From: Arsukibacterium sp. UBA5043
Lineage (GTDB): Bacteria > Pseudomonadota > Gammaproteobacteria > Enterobacterales > Alteromonadaceae
Length of the DNA stretch: 64,000 nucleotides
Reading direction: 5' to 3'
NCBI GenBank assembly: GCA_002415085.1
Contig: DIBV01000004.1
Location: forward strand, 265,879-329,878
Shown: in pieces, positions 55,205 to 64,000 of the stretch
Layout of the letters: each line of letters starts with the position of its first letter
Position numbering within the stretch: the stretch's first letter is position 1
The notes under the pieces: generated by a model
The model's database searches: none
What the model was told of the DNA's origin: nothing
The model's input: the letters and a program-made list of their open reading frames with translations, nothing else
Made by a program: the position numbers and the translations under genes

Positions 55205-58114
55205 TTAATCGTGACTCACCACGATAAGTCTGATTGCATCAAGTTTCAGACGTGCCTTACTAATATAATCGGTCAGTTGATGTTGTTTATCAGTCAGGAT
55301 GTCAATTTCTTGCTGACGAATCAGTGGGTTAATTTGCTGTAAGGCTTTTAATCGTTGCTGATCTGCCTGCAAGGCTTGCTGCATTTTTTGCAATGCGTTC
55401 TGGCATACCTTGGCTAATTGCTCTGTTGCGGCAGTTTCACTGGTAGCAATCAAAGGATGGATTAAGCTCTGCAGGGCATTGACAAGTTTGCTTGCGGTCT
55501 GCCGGCCAACCGGTTTTAACTGGCGGTTAAAGTTATCAAAGGGAACCTTAGCCGCCAGATCATTGCCGGTTTTATCCAGGAGCAAGCGGATTGGCGTACC
55601 AGGCAAATAACGGCCTAATTGCAGATAAGTAGGGGCGCTGGCCTCAACAATGTAAATGAGCTCGATAAAATAGCTGCCAACAGGCAGGGCTTTATTGGGC
55701 AGCAATGCCACTGCTGTATTGCCCATATTGTCATTTAACAACAAATCGAGGGTACCGGTCACCATGGGGTGATCCCAGGTTAAGAACTGAATATCCTCTT
55801 GCGCCAGCGCGGTATCCCGGTCGAATGTGACCGTAACGCCGTCATCTTCAAGGCCAGGATAGGCGCAACGTAAATGTTCAGCCGGTGTTAAAATAATACT
55901 GGTATCAGAGCGATCTTCCTGATTAACACCTACCAAATCCCAGGCCTGAAACATCAGCATCGGCAGCTGCACATCAGCGTCAGTTTGGGCAATGTCTGCT
56001 GCCAGTTGCCGGGCAGGCTCACCACCGGCTGAATTCAGCTCTAGCAGCTTGTCCCGTCCCTGTTCGAGTTGTTGTTGTAAGCGTTGGTGCTGCTGCTGGC
56101 TTTGCGCCAGTAGTTGCGCCACCTCAGAGGCATCGGTTTGAGACGCTGCCAGCAACGCCAGTAACGCCGGGCCATCCTGTTCATAAACCGAGCGACCTGT
56201 CTGGCAGGTATGCTCAAACGCGTTGAGGCTTTGCTGATACCAATCTAATAATATCTGCTGGGCACTATGTTTAAAATACGGAATATGTATCTGAATATCA
56301 TGCTGCTGGCCTATTCTGTCTAACCGGCCAATTCGCTGTTCGAGTAAATCAGGATTCAGTGGTAAATCAAACAATACCAAATGATGCGCAAACTGAAAAT
56401 TGCGTCCTTCGCTACCTATTTCAGAGCACACCAGCACCTGAGCACTGTAATCCTCCTGAGCAAAATAAGCTGCCGCTTTGTCGCGCTCAACAATCGACAT
56501 ACCTTCGTGAAATACTGCGGCGCGGATCCCTTCTTTCTGGCGCAAGGCTCCCTCTACTGCCAGCGCTGTTTCAGCAGCAGCGCAGATAACCAGAAATTTT
56601 GCCGGCTTGTGTTGTTTTAATAACGTTGTTAAATAATCAATACGAGGGTCAAATTGCCACCATTGACTGCTGCTCCCCTCAAATTCCTGATATACCCGCT
56701 CTGGAAATAAATTGGCTGTCGCGAGTTTAGCAAGTGTGCTTTGCTGGTTCAGACTTTGAAATACTTTAAGGGCATTTCGATACTGTTCAGGCAAATCCAG
56801 TGCTACTGGCTTGGCTACCCGGTCCGGGAAACCTTTAATACTGGCGCGGCTATTTCGAAATAAGATCCGGCCGGTACCATGGCGGTCCAACAGCTTGCTC
56901 AGCAAAACTTGTCTGGCGTGTTTTGCGTTATCAGATGCCACAGGTTCGCTGAGCAACGTGAGCTCGTTGCTGATATCTGTTTCCTTTATCAGCAGTTGCA
57001 GGTCGCTTTTCAGTTCGTTGTTAAGTGGGGCAGTGCTTAGCAAATGGCCAGCTGTAGTGGCAATATGCTGGTATTGGGCTTGCTCTGCAATAAATGCCTG
57101 ATAGTCGTAAAAGCGATCAGGGTCCAGCAGGCGTAAACGGGCAAAATGACCTTGCTGACCCAATTGATCTGGCGTGGCAGTTAACAAAATAACGCCGGCA
57201 GTATCCTGAGCCAGGCTTTCGATGGCACGATATTCTTTACTGACATGTTCTGCAGTCCACGCCAGATGATGGGCTTCATCAACTACCAATAAGTCCCAGT
57301 CACTGCTTTGAGCCTGTTCCAGCCATTGTTTGTTGCTACTGATGAATTCCAGACTGCATAGTACCAGCTGTGCGGTATCAAAGGGGTTACTAACATCCAG
57401 CTGTGACTGCTGACACCGTTCTTCATCAAATACTGAAAAATGCAGATTAAACCGGCGTAACATTTCCACCAGCCACTGGTATTGCAGGGATTCGGGTACG
57501 ACGACAAATACCCGGGTGGCCAGTCCGGACAACAGTTGCTGATGAATAATCAGTCCTGCTTCGATTGTTTTACCAAGGCCAACTTCATCAGCGAGCAAGA
57601 CTCTCGGCGCATGGCGTCCGGCAACTTCTCTGGCGATATGAAGTTGATGTGGGATCAGGCTCATTCGACCGCCTTGCAAACCACGCAATGGGCTTTGCTG
57701 TAACCGGCTTTGATGCTGCCACGCCAGATAACGTAGAGTAAAGTGATCAAAACGATCAATCTGGCCGGCGAAAAGACGGTCTTGTGGCCTGTTAAAGCTG
57801 ATAAAGTGGTCGAGAAAGGTTTCTTTTAGATCGGTTTTTTCGCCGTTGTCGATACGGTTGCCACTGTAAATCAGGGTATTGTGTGCTTCACTTACTGACG
57901 TGACAATTAAACTGAAACCTTCCGCACTTTTTATTTCATCGCCAATGTTAAAAATCACCCGGGTAAGAGGGGCCTCAGTCTGAGCATATTGCCGGGTTTC
58001 ACCGGTAGCCGGGAACAAAACCGTCAGCATCCGACCCTCGATACCCACCAGAGTTCCTAAACCAAGGTCAGACTCAGTATCGCTGATCCAGCGTTGTCCC
58101 AAAGCAAAATTCAT
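55205..58114 (-). CDS. rapA: RNA polymerase-associated Swi2/Snf2-type ATPase RapA
   Basis: At 969 residues the protein equals E. coli RapA (HepA). It starts NFALGQRWISDTESDLGLGTLVGIEGR and has Walker A in LADEVGLGKTIEAGLIIHQ, the DEAH box in VVDEAHHL, LLTATPDQLGQQGHFARL, and the second RecA lobe with EIGSEGRNFQFAHHLVLFDLP and EQRIGRLDRIGQ. It recycles stalled RNA polymerase. It forms an operon with rluA and diverges from the phoH-like gene. Confidence 0.97.
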   Translation of the reverse strand: MNFALGQRWISDTESDLGLGTLVGIEGRMLTVLFPATGETRQYAQTEAPLTRVIFNIGDEIKSAEGFSLIVTSVSEAHNTLIYSGNRIDNGEKTDLKETFLDHFISFNRPQDRLFAGQIDRFDHFTLRYLAWQHQSRLQQSPLRGLQGGRMSLIPHQLHIAREVAGRHAPRVLLADEVGLGKTIEAGLIIHQQLLSGLATRVFVVVPESLQYQWLVEMLRRFNLHFSVFDEERCQQSQLDVSNPFDTAQLVLCSLEFISSNKQWLEQAQSSDWDLLVVDEAHHLAWTAEHVSKEYRAIESLAQDTAGVILLTATPDQLGQQGHFARLRLLDPDRFYDYQAFIAEQAQYQHIATTAGHLLSTAPLNNELKSDLQLLIKETDISNELTLLSEPVASDNAKHARQVLLSKLLDRHGTGRILFRNSRASIKGFPDRVAKPVALDLPEQYRNALKVFQSLNQQSTLAKLATANLFPERVYQEFEGSSSQWWQFDPRIDYLTTLLKQHKPAKFLVICAAAETALAVEGALRQKEGIRAAVFHEGMSIVERDKAAAYFAQEDYSAQVLVCSEIGSEGRNFQFAHHLVLFDLPLNPDLLEQRIGRLDRIGQQHDIQIHIPYFKHSAQQILLDWYQQSLNAFEHTCQTGRSVYEQDGPALLALLAASQTDASEVAQLLAQSQQQHQRLQQQLEQGRDKLLELNSAGGEPARQLAADIAQTDADVQLPMLMFQAWDLVGVNQEDRSDTSIILTPAEHLRCAYPGLEDDGVTVTFDRDTALAQEDIQFLTWDHPMVTGTLDLLLNDNMGNTAVALLPNKALPVGSYFIELIYIVEASAPTYLQLGRYLPGTPIRLLLDKTGNDLAAKVPFDNFNRQLKPVGRQTASKLVNALQSLIHPLIATSETAATEQLAKVCQNALQKMQQALQADQQRLKALQQINPLIRQQEIDILTDKQHQLTDYISKARLKLDAIRLIVVSHD

Positions 58115-58377
58115 ATCAAAGCACCATCATAAAATCGGGGCGCCATGGTACTAGTAAATGAATAAAACTGCATCTGCCATCCGCTTATATTTTAGCTTTA
58201 ATCACTGTCATTTGGGTGTCACGAAAATATCGCAAAATATTTTCACCGCAAATTAGCGATTTAATTCAAGAATTGGCCGCCAACTGGCGCCGTTGCACTA
58301 TGCTTAGTTTAGCTACATAAAGTTGACAACAACAATATTGCGTAAAGTTAACTTGGTTTTGTTTGAAGGAGCTGCGT

Positions 58378-59694
58378 ATGGCGCGAAAAAAAAGCAAAGA
58401 AAAGAAAATCTATGTATTAGACACCAATATTCTGCTGCATGAACCCTTCGCCTTTCTCAATTTCGAAGAACACGACGTGGTCATCCCGATGACCGTGCTG
58501 GAAGAACTTGATCACATTAAAGATCGCAATAAAGACGTTAGCAGAGACGCCCGGATCGCGATCCGGGCGTTAGAAGACGTGCTGCGTGACGCTTCACCAG
58601 AGCAAATGCTGCAAGGTGTGGCCTTACCCCGTCAAAATGAGCAGTTAGGAGGTGGCCATTTATTTATCATTAATGATCATCATATTAAAGACGAAATACC
58701 CGGTTTACCCGGTGGTGAAAATGACCACTTAATTATTAATACTGCTTTGTATCTGCAACGCGAAAAAGGTCCGGTCATAGTTATTCTGGTGACCAAGGAT
58801 ATTAATATGCGCCTGAAAGCAAAAGGTGCTGGCTTAAAACAGGTTGAAGACTATCGAACAGACCAGTTAATTGATGATGTTCGCTTTTTATACAAAGGTT
58901 ATTTTAAATTCAGTGGTGAGTTCTGGAGTCAGGTTGGCGAATGTCGCAGTGAAAACGAGGGCCGGGATACAGTACATTATGTCAGTCGTAAACTATTGCC
59001 CAATGCTTATCTCAATGAATATCTGATAGATGAAGCAGAAACCTTTGCCGGTCGGGTGCTGGCGATCACCGAGCATGAAATTAAAATTCTGGACTTCGGC
59101 TATGAGCGATTGATGCATCGGCATGCCTGGGGGATTCATCCTAAAAATATCTATCAAGCGATGGCATTGCAGGCGTTGTTGGATACCGACATGGATTTGG
59201 TGATTCTGACCGGCCCGGCCGGCTGCGGCAAAACGCTGATTGCGCTGGCCGCTGCTTTGGAGCTGGTGATTGAAAAAGGCCAGTACGAAAAGGTTATTGT
59301 TACCCGTAACACTCCTGAAATTGCTGAATCAATTGGTTTTTTACCAGGTACTGAGGAAGAAAAAATGGCGCCCTGGCTTGCGGCTATTACAGACTCACTT
59401 GAAGTACTGCATAAAACTGATGAGCACCCGCATGCCAGTGTCAGTTACATTATGGACAAAGCCAACATTCAGTTTAAATCGGTCAACTTTATGCGTGGCA
59501 GAAGTATTCAGAATGCGATAGTAATCCTGTACCCCAGTATTTGTTTGGCTGATAAGTTGTTACTTCCTCGTCTTTACTGGGCTAGAAGGGTGGTAACAAG
59601 AATTTTGGTGAATAATCGCAACTTTACCAAACATTCTGCAAATGCTGATTCTTTTTTGTTACATTCAGATGTTGTTTTGGGGGAGGTTGCATAA
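58378..59694 (+). pseudogene. Host PIN-PhoH family ATPase gene, 3' end lost to element insertion
   Basis: The N-terminal PIN domain is intact (KIYVLDTNILLHEPFAF, MTVLEELDHIKDRN, VTKDINMRLKAKGAG) and the PhoH ATPase begins normally with Walker A GPAGCGKTLIA and GFLPGTEEEKMAPWL. After MRGRSIQNAIVIL (to about 59529) homology stops. The Walker B aspartate, QN motif and final helices are replaced by about 55 unrelated residues ending at 59694. The ATG at 58378 follows AAGGAG. The protein can be made but its ATPase is broken. The break is the left end of the integrated element; the missing 3' part should lie beyond the right window edge. Another complete PhoH-type gene begins in the TAATG overlap. 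Confidence 0.85.
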
Positions 59695-61070
59695 TGATCG
59701 CACGTAAAAACATTCCACGTGTTTTAGATACATCAGCATTAGTCCACGATCCAAAGTCCCTTTTATCATATGAGGACGACATCTACATCTGCCTCACTGT
59801 CCTGGAAGAATTGGACAATCTTAAAGAGCGCAGGGATAGGTCTATTAGTGCCGATGCCCGCGTCTGTATCCGGATGCTTGAAGATCTTGTCAGTGGCCAC
59901 GATGCTGAGCAACTAGAAATTGGGATCCCGCTTCCAACTAGTGAAACAGGAAAACGTGGAAAATTGTTCATTGGCATCGATACCAACATTGAGCTTGAGC
60001 AATCGCTGCGGCATGGTATAGGCAGCGAGGCCGACAACAGAATCATAAATTATGCCTACCAGTTGCAAAAGAGACTTGAGCAGCCAGTGTCGATAGTGAC
60101 TCGCGACATTAACATGCGTTTGAAAGCGAGAACTGTTGGCGTTGGTGCGGAAGATGTATCCGTTGATAACTCCATCGCTGACATTGATCTTTTATATGGT
60201 GGTGTTCAAGTATTTGAATCCGACCTGTTCGAAAAACTGGAAAGTGATGACGACTTTAAATTATCCGGTGATGTATACAGGATGGATCGAAGTCTGTTTA
60301 ACGACGAAGTTCAATCAAATATGTATTGGTATGACGAAGCAGGGCATATTGGTCTTGTAACTGAAGTGAGTGCAGAGCATGTTTACACGACATTGCTTCC
60401 ACGCAAACACAAAAAGATTTGGGGTGTTTTACCAAAGAATTCAAGACAGGCAATAGCTCTGCACCAGCTAACCGACCCTCAATACGACCTTAACATACTG
60501 CTTGGCCCAGCTGGGTCTGGTAAGACTTTTCTCGCAGTTGCAGCGGCCCTGCATCAAGTGTTGGAAGAGAAAAAGTACAAGAAGATTGTTGTTGTTCGTA
60601 GCAGAGATTTCATGGACGAGGATCCCGGTTTTTTGCCAGGGGATTTGAAAGAGAAATCAATGCCACTTCTTGCAGGTATCACAGATGCGCTGATATCAAT
60701 GCATAGTGACGATAGCAATGAACATAACACTTTTACAACAATTGAACACATCATCGAAAAAGCCAATATTGAATTCACCTCAATGGCCTATTTTCGGGGA
60801 CGCTCGCTGGATGATGCATTTTTGATAATTGACGAGGCCCAAAATATGACTCGTGCACAAATGAAAGGGATGCTGTCAAGGGGCGGCAGAAATTGCCGGA
60901 CAGTTGTACTTGGGAACCTTGCTCAGATTGATGACAAGTTTGTAACGGCCGCCTCGAGCGGCGCAAGTGCAGCTGTGAATGTTTATCGACATTATGAACA
61001 TGGAACAGTACTGATTTTTGACGAGGTGGAGCGTAGCTCGCTCGCAGAATTTACGGAGAAAAATTTTTAG
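59694..61070 (+). CDS. Element-borne complete PIN-PhoH family ATPase
   Basis: The 458-residue protein has the same domain order as the broken host gene but is strongly diverged: PIN domain (RVLDTSALVHDPKSLLS, LTVLEELDNLKER, VTRDINMRLKART), then the PhoH ATPase with Walker A LLGPAGSGKTFLAVA, Walker B DAFLIIDEAQNMT and sensor GNLAQIDDKFVTAAS. Its end, ERSSLAEFTEKNF, is the normal PhoH C-terminus. GGGGGAGG lies before the ATG, which overlaps the upstream stop (TAATG), so translation is coupled to the truncated host gene. Related PhoH2 proteins are RNA helicase-ribonucleases. Here it may replace the lost host function or serve the element; this is inferred. Confidence 0.88.
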   Translation: MIARKNIPRVLDTSALVHDPKSLLSYEDDIYICLTVLEELDNLKERRDRSISADARVCIRMLEDLVSGHDAEQLEIGIPLPTSETGKRGKLFIGIDTNIELEQSLRHGIGSEADNRIINYAYQLQKRLEQPVSIVTRDINMRLKARTVGVGAEDVSVDNSIADIDLLYGGVQVFESDLFEKLESDDDFKLSGDVYRMDRSLFNDEVQSNMYWYDEAGHIGLVTEVSAEHVYTTLLPRKHKKIWGVLPKNSRQAIALHQLTDPQYDLNILLGPAGSGKTFLAVAAALHQVLEEKKYKKIVVVRSRDFMDEDPGFLPGDLKEKSMPLLAGITDALISMHSDDSNEHNTFTTIEHIIEKANIEFTSMAYFRGRSLDDAFLIIDEAQNMTRAQMKGMLSRGGRNCRTVVLGNLAQIDDKFVTAASSGASAAVNVYRHYEHGTVLIFDEVERSSLAEFTEKNF

Positions 61071-61149
61071 TCGGACTACAGTGACAAGCAGTAGAAAAGC
61101 GCAAAAGAGAAAGTTAAAAACAACATTGCAAATATCGGAAAATATACTA

Positions 61150-61179
61150 CCTTTACCGTTATATATATAACGGTAAAGG
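61150..61179. repeat. 30-bp perfect palindrome overlapping a ribosome site
   Basis: Bases 61150-61179 are exactly self-complementary; the half-site is CCTTTACCGTTATAT. It ends eight bases before the GTG at 61187 and its right arm includes the AAAGG of that gene's ribosome site. It could be an operator for a dimeric regulator or a hairpin hiding the ribosome site. Confidence 0.85.
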
Positions 61180-61186
61180 GGTTTAT

Positions 61187-61570
61187 GTGGCTAAACAAAC
61201 TTCTACAAAAATCAATGTCTCTGATCTGGAGTTTGTTATTGAGTATCTAATCTTGCTTGCGCAGTCTAAACGTGCGCTTCAATTAAATATTCCGCTCTAT
61301 AAGAGCGTAAACAGGTTGAAGTTATATAAAGCCGCTATATGTGTCGAAACAGCGCTACTAGAAAAACGTGACGAGGACTTCATCGATGCAATTGATAGAG
61401 TATGTATTGATGTTGAAGGGATAGTTGTCAACGCAATACCGCCGGAAGAAATCCAAAGACTAAAAACGGCAATAAGGCAAAAGCGTTATAAAAATAACGA
61501 TTTCAATCGCCTTTTAAGCGAGTATCAGAGCACACTTTCATTCGTTGATGGTAGGTTAGATAGCCATTAA
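61187..61570 (+). CDS. Unknown element protein, 127 residues
   Basis: The product is helix-rich and soluble: VSDLEFVIEYLILLAQSKRALQL, LYKAAICVETALLEKRDEDF, PPEEIQRLKTAIRQKRYKN. I do not recognise a family and no catalytic motif is visible. The start is a GTG at 61187 after AAAGGGG, which lies partly in the right arm of the 30-bp palindrome. It has low GC content like the rest of the element. No membrane segment or signal peptide is seen. The 200 bp after it hold no feature I can support. Confidence 0.6.
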   Translation: MAKQTSTKINVSDLEFVIEYLILLAQSKRALQLNIPLYKSVNRLKLYKAAICVETALLEKRDEDFIDAIDRVCIDVEGIVVNAIPPEEIQRLKTAIRQKRYKNNDFNRLLSEYQSTLSFVDGRLDSH

Positions 61571-62811: not shown

Positions 62812-63036
62812 TTACTTGTCGGGAACGTGCTCGATAAGGTGTTCGACCGGAACCTCGAAAAATTTACAGAGGCGATCAATGGTATCTAGCGTCACATTAC
62901 AGCCAGGGGTATTAATCATTTTTGATAGGGTCGCTCGGTGTATCCCCGTTGCCTCGGAAATCTCGTTAATCGTAACGCGTTGCCCATCATCAAATGATTT
63001 TTTTTCGACTAACGCCATTAAATGGTACCTGAACAT
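62812..63036 (-). CDS. Cro/CI-type helix-turn-helix regulator
   Basis: The 74-residue protein is a single XRE domain: FRYHLMALVEKKSF, then TINEISEATGIHRATLSKMINTPG for helices 2-3, and LDTIDRLCKFFEVPVEHLIEHVPD at the end. The EHVPD ending and length match the small repressors often encoded beside mobile-element integrases. GGAGG precedes the ATG. It diverges from the recombinase gene with a 78-bp gap and probably controls that promoter. Confidence 0.88.
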   Translation of the reverse strand: MFRYHLMALVEKKSFDDGQRVTINEISEATGIHRATLSKMINTPGCNVTLDTIDRLCKFFEVPVEHLIEHVPDK

Positions 63037-63114: not shown

Positions 63115-64000
63115 ATGAAGCCTATTGTCCGTGATACAGAAGGTAATTTGGTATTACGTCTAAAAATCATGGGGTGCCACTTATCTGAGCAAACAAAATT
63201 TTTAGATACACCGAAACACAGGACGTATTTGCAGACTACCTTAAAAAAAATACATCAAGAAGTGAAATCGGGTGTTTTTGACTATGCAAAATACTTTCCT
63301 TACAGTAAAAATGTATTTTATATCAATGCATTAAAATCAAAATTTCTGTCGCCAGGTTGGCGAGGACTACCTACTTTCAGGCATTTCCTAATGAATGAGT
63401 TTCAAGGTAGTTCAGATGAACTAGGGCAGATTTTAATGATTTGCATTATGGGATGTTTGGGGGAGCAACGGGTTGATGAAATTCTGGGTTACAACATCCT
63501 CAAACTGAAAGAAATGCTCAAGACTATAAAGGGAATTACAAAACCAAATTACATTGCAGCGATGGAGTTTGTTTTCAGGGTCTTAGATCAAGCTTCGCTA
63601 GTCTATGTATTTCCCAGGCCATTCAAACTAGTGCTAACAGACGACGGTGGACAATTTGCCAAACCATTATGTCACAGAGACATATTGCAAATAGTCGATA
63701 ACGTGCCATCAAAATATCGCGAGGTTTTTTTATTGCAATATTATACGGGGCTATCTTCAAAAGAGCTGTTAGAGCTTGAATGGAAACACTATAGCATAAA
63801 GGATACAACGTTTTTTTTGTCTGGGCGGGAGGTATATATCGACCCCTACGCTAGACGTCTTCTCTTTCAACTGCGAAAAAAATCGGGTAGTAGCCGCTAT
63901 GTATTTGGCGCACCTTTTGGCAAAAAGTTGAAAATAAACCATTGCTGGCTCAGCAAAGAATGTTGGCCAAAGGCTTGTGTCACCGGCAATGTAAAACTGA
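63115..64000 (+). CDS. Tyrosine-recombinase integrase with Arm domain, cut by the right window edge
   Basis: The frame is open from the ATG at 63115 (GGAGG six bases upstream) to the last base, at least 295 codons. Residues 1-65 form an Arm DNA-binding (DUF3596-like) domain: TKFLDTPKHRTYLQTTLKKI and SGVFDYAKYFPYS. A core-binding helix region follows, then the catalytic start VPSKYREVFLLQYYTGLSSKELLELEW. In active relatives that segment reads TGLRxSEL, so catalytic Arg I appears to be Ser214 here. The remaining HxxR and Tyr motifs lie outside the window. The protein is probably the integrase that inserted the element in phoH, unless the Arg change has disabled it. Confidence 0.82.
   Translation, partial: MKPIVRDTEGNLVLRLKIMGCHLSEQTKFLDTPKHRTYLQTTLKKIHQEVKSGVFDYAKYFPYSKNVFYINALKSKFLSPGWRGLPTFRHFLMNEFQGSSDELGQILMICIMGCLGEQRVDEILGYNILKLKEMLKTIKGITKPNYIAAMEFVFRVLDQASLVYVFPRPFKLVLTDDGGQFAKPLCHRDILQIVDNVPSKYREVFLLQYYTGLSSKELLELEWKHYSIKDTTFFLSGREVYIDPYARRLLFQLRKKSGSSRYVFGAPFGKKLKINHCWLSKECWPKACVTGNVKL

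Follow-up and report, generated by a model that had tools for sequence, protein, structure and literature searches.

The question raised by this locus was whether a mobile element that interrupted a conserved ATPase gene also supplied the replacement for it. The phoH2 product is a predicted RNA-processing ATPase. The window, i.e., the whole stretch of 64,000 nucleotides that was analyzed, belongs to contig C4 of Arsukibacterium sp. UBA5043, and its right edge (base 64000) is the end of that contig. The host phoH frame occupied 58378-59694 on the + strand, and according to the reading frames its PhoH-homologous codons stopped at 59529, where the initial annotation had placed the loss of homology at the codons for Walker B. 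In the remaining 5′ part (58378..59529, +), which spans residues 1-384, the PIN domain was whole and the ATPase reached as far as the Walker B strand. This part matched the Pfam families PIN_4 and PhoH in a profile search, and residues 1-384 were 90% identical to the intact orthologue from the same genus. The intA-distal junction (attR) contained the 6-bp core ATCCTG (59524..59529, +), which encodes Ile-Leu of Walker B, followed by the element end TACCCCAGTAT (motif C′; 59530..59540, +), and the order at this left junction was ...GTA-ATCCTG-TACCCCAGTAT....

The missing host 3′ end and the direct repeat, which had been expected beyond the right edge, were both found on contig C6 of the same genome. 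A search of the genome with the PhoH model located the 3′ remnant at C6:9221-9460, where it complemented the left half. The core was repeated at C6:9215-9220, and the right junction had the order ...ATACCGGGGTA-ATCCTG-GATGAATGT.... The element ends TACCCCAGTAT and ATACCGGGGTA were imperfect inverted copies of each other, and the ATCCTG direct repeat sat within the matching inverted ends TACCCC...GGGGTA. The uninterrupted relative used for comparison, G254 from the same genus, had a single intact phoH2 with no tandem pair, and the synteny of rapA, phoH2 and the right flank was kept. The same genes flank the intact phoH2 of G254, which also suggests that C4 and C6 were neighbours.

The element measured 13.7 kb or more, of which 4,471 bp lay in the window and 9,214 bp on C6, with the middle unassembled. 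Inside the right junction on C6, proteins of 484, 1043, 697 and 155 aa were encoded in this order. The 484-aa protein was a tyrosine recombinase with a PF00589 match below the cut-off, and the 697-aa protein had a recombinase C-terminus with PF00589 above the cut-off; the profile search gave no family match for the 1043-aa and 155-aa proteins. This arrangement agreed in order and size with intA, tfp, intB and srap beside attL, the SE gene order described in the consulted sections of PMC10214605, and the names tfp and srap were given to the C6 genes by position. The same four-gene order was present in L072, L093 and L242. Moreover, the imperfect inverted repeats with a 6-bp spacer that mark SEs were found in the window. 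Gene order and ends thus make an SE-like tyrosine-recombinase element the most likely assignment. The name "SE-like" reflects the gene order together with remote homology of IntA and IntB to the SE-like module of V. alfacsensis plas2 (hhalign probabilities of 99.3 and 98.5, respectively); Tfp had no detectable homology in the piece compared, which was the first of two Tfp pieces (probability 1.8). Homologues of the IntA/Tfp/IntB trio were also present on betaproteobacterial plasmids.

The C6 part also encoded proteins with sub-threshold glutaredoxin and CopM matches, and a gene end on it looked like a heavy-metal RND pump. An inverted repeat 80 bp past the element phoH (61150..61179, +) was terminator-like on both strands in a simple scan, which found three such sites in the region against 2.6 expected. 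Further cargo extended to the contig end (61187..64000) as small ORFs with no family match and a 74-aa ORF at 62812-63036 (−). An Arm-DNA-bind_2 ORF at 63115-63999, open at the contig end, is perhaps the integrase of a nested element. A complete example on a single contig was provided by G371, in which a whole SE-type element of approximately 18.6 kb lay between the Walker B halves and contained IntA, Tfp, a split IntB, a small gene at the srap position and a coupled mobile phoH; the genes splitting IntB resemble those of an insertion sequence. At the intA end of three elements, GGGGT occurred twice with a distance of 25 bp (L005:9170-9214, L072 and L074), and the two motifs are possibly paired recombinase sites. 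Furthermore, a second copy of the last host phoH2 codons downstream of the remnant (L072:17090-17173, G160) was a sign of further rearrangement.

The first gene of the element (59694..61070, +) encoded a PIN-PhoH ATPase of 458 aa, which belonged to a mobile clade. It was complete and diverged, as had been claimed, with PIN (PF13638) and PhoH ATPase (PF02562) domains, the composition of the PhoH2 family, and 40% identity to the host PhoH over 384 aa. The NCBIfam PhoH2 model matched it at 164.8 bits, far under the 680-bit cut-off of that model. The active motifs, namely GPAGSGKT, IIDE and the PIN acidic residues, were invariant in six mobile copies. The element PhoH was matched in 280 of 295 genomes of the order; six of the 295, its own included, had identities of at least 70%, and the rest were at 43% or lower among the matches listed. 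A scan of the genome collection yielded at least 37 complete loci at 66-100% identity and one partial locus (L116, 86%), after which identity fell to 33%. The clade was present in at least 45 genomes of related and mostly marine bacteria, counted as the 37 loci, the window genome, G041 and G165, and G356, G416, G371, G440 and G447. L101, a short contig binned as Flavobacteriaceae, is probably contamination. A plasmid origin was rejected, since all 620 plasmid matches were below 60% identity and the 15 listed were below 40%.

In a tree of 40 mobile and four host proteins, the mobile clade stood apart with full support, and some well-supported mobile groups mixed host families, while many inner forks were weak. 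In three genomes (G041, G061 and G165), the clade member was a stand-alone gene with no Tfp match, and Ferrimonas (L110) had a 66% relative alongside an intact phoH2. Stand-alone mobile-type phoH genes with conserved synteny and no element were observed in one genus (L040:6958-8340, L041:6934-8316 and L042:8068-9450), and these copies can be read as a source gene or a domesticated copy. The mobile phoH was horizontally transferred and under purifying selection. The genes of the window and of Arsukibacterium UBA3155 were identical over 458 codons (dS = 0), and the dS of the host fragments was 0.94. Pseudoalteromonas and a Glaciecola MAG had an identical mobile gene beside host fragments with 56% identity, and Colwellia polaris and Cognaticolwellia aestuarii had one common mobile gene at a host dS of 1.95. 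Omega ranged from 0.019 to 0.084 in 11 of 18 hand-picked mobile pairs; three of the remaining pairs had no differences and four were saturated.

The association of mobile copies with broken host genes was explored across genomes. The initial annotation had called for other genomes with a second PIN-PhoH gene after a truncated one, and an N-terminal phoH2 fragment, 276 residues or longer, was indeed found at most 3 kb upstream of the mobile gene in 24 of the 37 loci listed. The fragment was about 7 kb away in L096 and L099, and a short, often weak, phoH2 piece was found in L095, L098, L100, L101 and L107. The upstream neighbour in L102 was a broken mobile copy, and L094 had only the locus (rapA) and a mini-ORF. 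L088 was at a contig edge in a genome with a phoH2 3′ remnant, L109 and L110 were stand-alone, and L112 had rapA downstream. A host phoH2 3′ remnant was present in 25 of the 34 genomes examined (the 37 minus L081, L089 and L109, already covered as G160, G263 and G061). SE-type IntA was detected at E <1e-100 in nine of the 34 and weakly in two more, and in eight of those nine it lay no more than about 200 bp from the remnant. The cut sites clustered at Walker A, near residue 322, at Walker B and at about 411-433; early cuts (about residue 60 or before) were confined to loci with short leftovers. Mismatched left and right cuts (G160, G263, G296, G305, G317, G328, G416 and G440) suggest that two insertions occurred and that the middle was subsequently lost.

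Among 147 genomes of the family, phoH2 was broken in 16, gave no match in six, was represented by the mobile copy only in G447 and was intact in 124, the last number being obtained by subtraction, with an open frame of at least 462 aa in the genomes listed. A complete mobile copy was present in 15/16 genomes with broken phoH2 vs. 0/124 with intact phoH2 (Fisher p = 3e-19, G447 excluded), where the mobile protein itself was searched in 15 of the 147 genomes and match counts from the phoH2 search were used elsewhere. The tandem pair looked for in element-free relatives was thus absent from the intact-phoH2 genomes of the family. The exception was G398, in which phoH2 was interrupted at Walker B on a contig edge; its mobile phoH pieces carried stops. 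Three of the six genomes with no phoH2 match at E 1e-22 were at least 99% complete, and G370 had small PIN-like pieces. Host phoH2 seems dispensable in some genomes, which weakens the case for a need of rescue.

An IntA model built from the IntA of phoH2 insertions, including G000, G160 and G263, scored below 1e-200 in these three of the 295 order genomes, whose high scores follow from the way the model was built; no fourth genome approached them. Four further genomes had a distant SE-like IntA and no mobile PhoH; three of these integrases lie next to apparent type I restriction genes, and the fourth lies in an apparent comM. In L205, L207 and L208 (G044, G282 and G266), the adjoining genes were apparent type I restriction hsdM/hsdS, perhaps an insertion hot spot. 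In G141 (L206/L245/L247, G141:C13), a different SE-like element cut an apparent comM near the Walker A codons, and no second comM N-terminus was found in the three stretches searched. Target replacement as a general rule for SE-like elements was rejected on this absence from the stretches searched.

The junction 6-mers may record earlier positions of the elements. According to PMC10214605, the attR 6-mer of SEs comes from the donor site and the attL 6-mer from the host. The two differed in five of nine SE Walker B insertions with both sides known (L086, L087, L092, L111 and L113) and agreed in the window, L083, L097 and L242. The attR 6-mer encoded Ile-Leu in eight of the nine, with L092 (GTGTGG) as the exception. 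A donor origin of the attR 6-mers would also apply to the phoH2 elements, and if the SE rule holds, the previous residence was mostly the Walker B codons of another phoH2, since the attR 6-mers encode Ile-Leu.

The elements at Walker A had NAAAAC 6-mers and 8-bp ends AGGTATTA where readable, and their left and right 6-mers differed in three of five readable pairs (seven right ends fetched). A single element type at all sites was rejected, since six of the seven Walker A right ends (L195 in G304, L196 and L198-L201) carried another recombination module, which encoded proteins of approximately 1090 aa, 789 aa (integrase-like), 240 aa and 147 aa and a RecD2-like helicase. The first protein had 1585 aa in L198, and no module was seen in L197. 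The module was not alignable with Tfp, and with IntB it aligned only around the recombinase box and with no significance. Its one NCBIfam match was sub-threshold (VPA1267 family, 21.7 vs. the 90-bit cut-off), and identity with the gamma-mobile-trio, for which this match speaks, is not claimed. On one contig (L102 and L116), a mobile phoH had itself been interrupted at Walker A, with a further complete copy behind it. Later stages were also encountered. The 10 kb of G447 that were read showed no element; a leader ORF of 118 aa, in which two stretches resembled PhoH2, had a stop overlapping the mobile ATG. The host part was reduced to a 51-codon mini-ORF in L094 and to 23 matching residues in L098, and TAATG was kept in both. 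These three loci, with a short host leftover and no element seen, may be decayed insertions, and they look like finished gene replacement.

The connection between the broken gene and the element gene was evaluated at the stop and start codons. In the window, the host frame continued into the element as a 54-codon open tail (59530..59694, +), the TAA of which (59692-59694) overlapped the ATG of the element gene (59694-59696). The claimed TAATG overlap was therefore located at 59692..59696 (+), where it is a candidate for translational coupling, and the likely ribosome-binding site GGGGGAGG (59679..59686, +; by eye) lay inside the tail just upstream of the ATG. A simple scan of 58100-61200, which is weak evidence, found no promoter-like site on the + strand. 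In the SE-type loci (12 together with L242 and L243), the host frame ran 54-70 codons into the element, and the host stop overlapped the mobile phoH ATG in 12 of the 14 insertions; L092 was two bases off, and L093 was not coupled in this way. In 12 SE-type tails, each of the two remaining frames contained 2-8 stops. The Walker A element of L108 was also coupled; most other Walker A loci were uncoupled, with stops that lay 62-293 bases before the mobile ATG.

The overlap could be a by-product of a conserved recombinase-binding sequence in the element end rather than selected coupled translation, a reading that was considered unlikely but deserving of more weight than the other alternatives. TTACCCC-like repeats near the end were common to some tails (by eye). 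Insertion was in phase 0 in the SE-type cases read, and phase alone proves little because only two or three sites are involved and the frame was not independently sampled. Conversely, the nine tails compared were only 43-79% alike in DNA, mostly below 60%, yet all were open over 54-75 codons, with a chance of openness of 0.35-5.6% for each simulated tail, and eight of the nine ended at the start codon or no more than two bases from it, the other being L093. Moreover, the shortened leader of G447 and the mini-ORF of L094 still ended on the ATG.

The element PhoH may instead serve the element in replication, transposition or RNA processing, with phoH2 merely a convenient conserved target; the mobile PhoH travels with the element and is carried by two different recombinase systems, which speaks for this reading. 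This reading was nevertheless judged improbable, because the four other SE-like IntA genomes of the 295-genome sample had no mobile PhoH, the copies in G447, L094 and L098 persisted with their overlap where the element was no longer seen, and a mobile copy never accompanied an intact phoH2 in the 124 family genomes, although the Ferrimonas relative does so. A further reading, in which the pair arose as chance cargo or from an old tandem duplication that an insertion then split, was regarded as very improbable. Stand-alone copies in one genus and in Ferrimonas speak for it, but the single phoH2 of intact relatives, the grouping of mobile copies together across families and apart from host genes, and DNA-identical copies in hosts with diverged phoH2 speak against it, and tandem duplication was rejected on these grounds.

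The preferred explanation, which was held with good confidence, is that an SE-like element in the Walker B codons replaces the broken phoH2 through a leader read by the host. A site-specific tyrosine-recombinase element would enter the Walker B codons of host phoH2, since it homes to conserved codons of ATPase motifs, and its leading gene, on the side opposite the recombinase genes, would be a complete but diverged PhoH2. The insertion would break the host gene, and the host promoter, start codon and ribosomes would read the truncated frame through the conserved open tail. The stop of the tail would overlap the start of the element phoH and make the mobile gene the second gene of the broken phoH2 unit, and the substitute made in place of the lost protein could lower the cost of insertion. 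The junctions, gene content, cross-genome linkage, transfer, purifying selection and conserved overlap were observed, and a shared transcript, actual coupling and functional replacement are inferred. Linkage and mutual exclusivity, together with purifying selection and conservation of the overlap, favoured the proposal that the element destroys the host ATPase and supplies a substitute, and functional rescue was inferred. Against the explanation stand the apparent dispensability of phoH2 in some genomes, the decayed mobile pieces of G398, the Ferrimonas relative and the stand-alone genes of G041, G061 and G165. On a wider scale, and with the balance tilted slightly in its favour, phoH2 of marine Gammaproteobacteria may be a contested locus, with at least two recombinase systems homing repeatedly to its ATPase-motif codons and sharing a common replacement allele. 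SE-type elements would express this allele from the start codon and ribosomes of the broken gene by way of an evolved in-frame leader, and re-invasion of the replacement (L102/L116) and its survival as the resident gene after decay would lead to permanent displacement of a housekeeping gene.

These observations would turn scattered cases (recA, bcp and yolD-like genes) into a recurrent and testable strategy, in which a conserved gene is broken and its replacement supplied. Such elements may borrow the translation of the victim gene, their 6-bp fingerprints suggest that they resided at the same motif before, and with so many insertions it becomes possible to examine how gene displacement begins and ends. 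Furthermore, phoH2, like recA, can mislead as a phylogenetic marker.

The initial annotation knew of no described system in which phoH is an insertion target with an element-borne homologue. The principle itself, however, is in print, in the portions consulted, for SE-6283/bcp, the recA elements and Tn552-II. The phoH2 gene as a target of such elements was not found in the literature searched, which covered some subscription journals but neither preprints nor supplements and in which the one entry listed concerned cyanophage genomes, and phoH was absent from the main texts of PMC10214605, PMC9345347 and PMC5385486. What appears new is phoH2 as the target, a clade dedicated to it, and an in-frame leader and overlap that are conserved, as well as one replacement gene common to two recombinase systems and takeovers that are repeated and nested. 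The GInt islands, in the sections available, resemble the phoH2 element in their four recombination genes and tyrosine recombinases, but those sections describe no copy of a target gene and probably no complete target inactivation, and one island has an outward promoter (PMC5385486). Tn552-II, with Tn554-type tnpABC, has the target-gene-like tgl on board, for which rescue was suggested; it differs in being staphylococcal, with a 7-bp site and a YolD-like gene among its targets, according to the part of PMC12486829 consulted. SE-6283 (Tn6283) and its relatives in bcp share with the phoH2 element the four-gene recombination module, the 6-bp footprint, the donor-derived attR 6-mer, and the hit on a conserved gene of which a complete homologue is carried (PMC9345347, PMC5991714 and PMC10214605, as far as these texts were available); phoH2 is the target here, and those portions of the SE-6283 descriptions contain no in-frame coupling with the interrupted gene. 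In the recA mobile elements of Vibrio cholerae S24 and V. parahaemolyticus 090-96, an island interrupts a housekeeping gene and brings along a complete but divergent version of it, and the S24 recA copy sits at the end opposite the integrase, as here (PMC4405046 and PMC4334540, in the parts consulted). The same portions give the S24 copy its own LexA-type promoter and a target and genes other than those of the phoH2 element.
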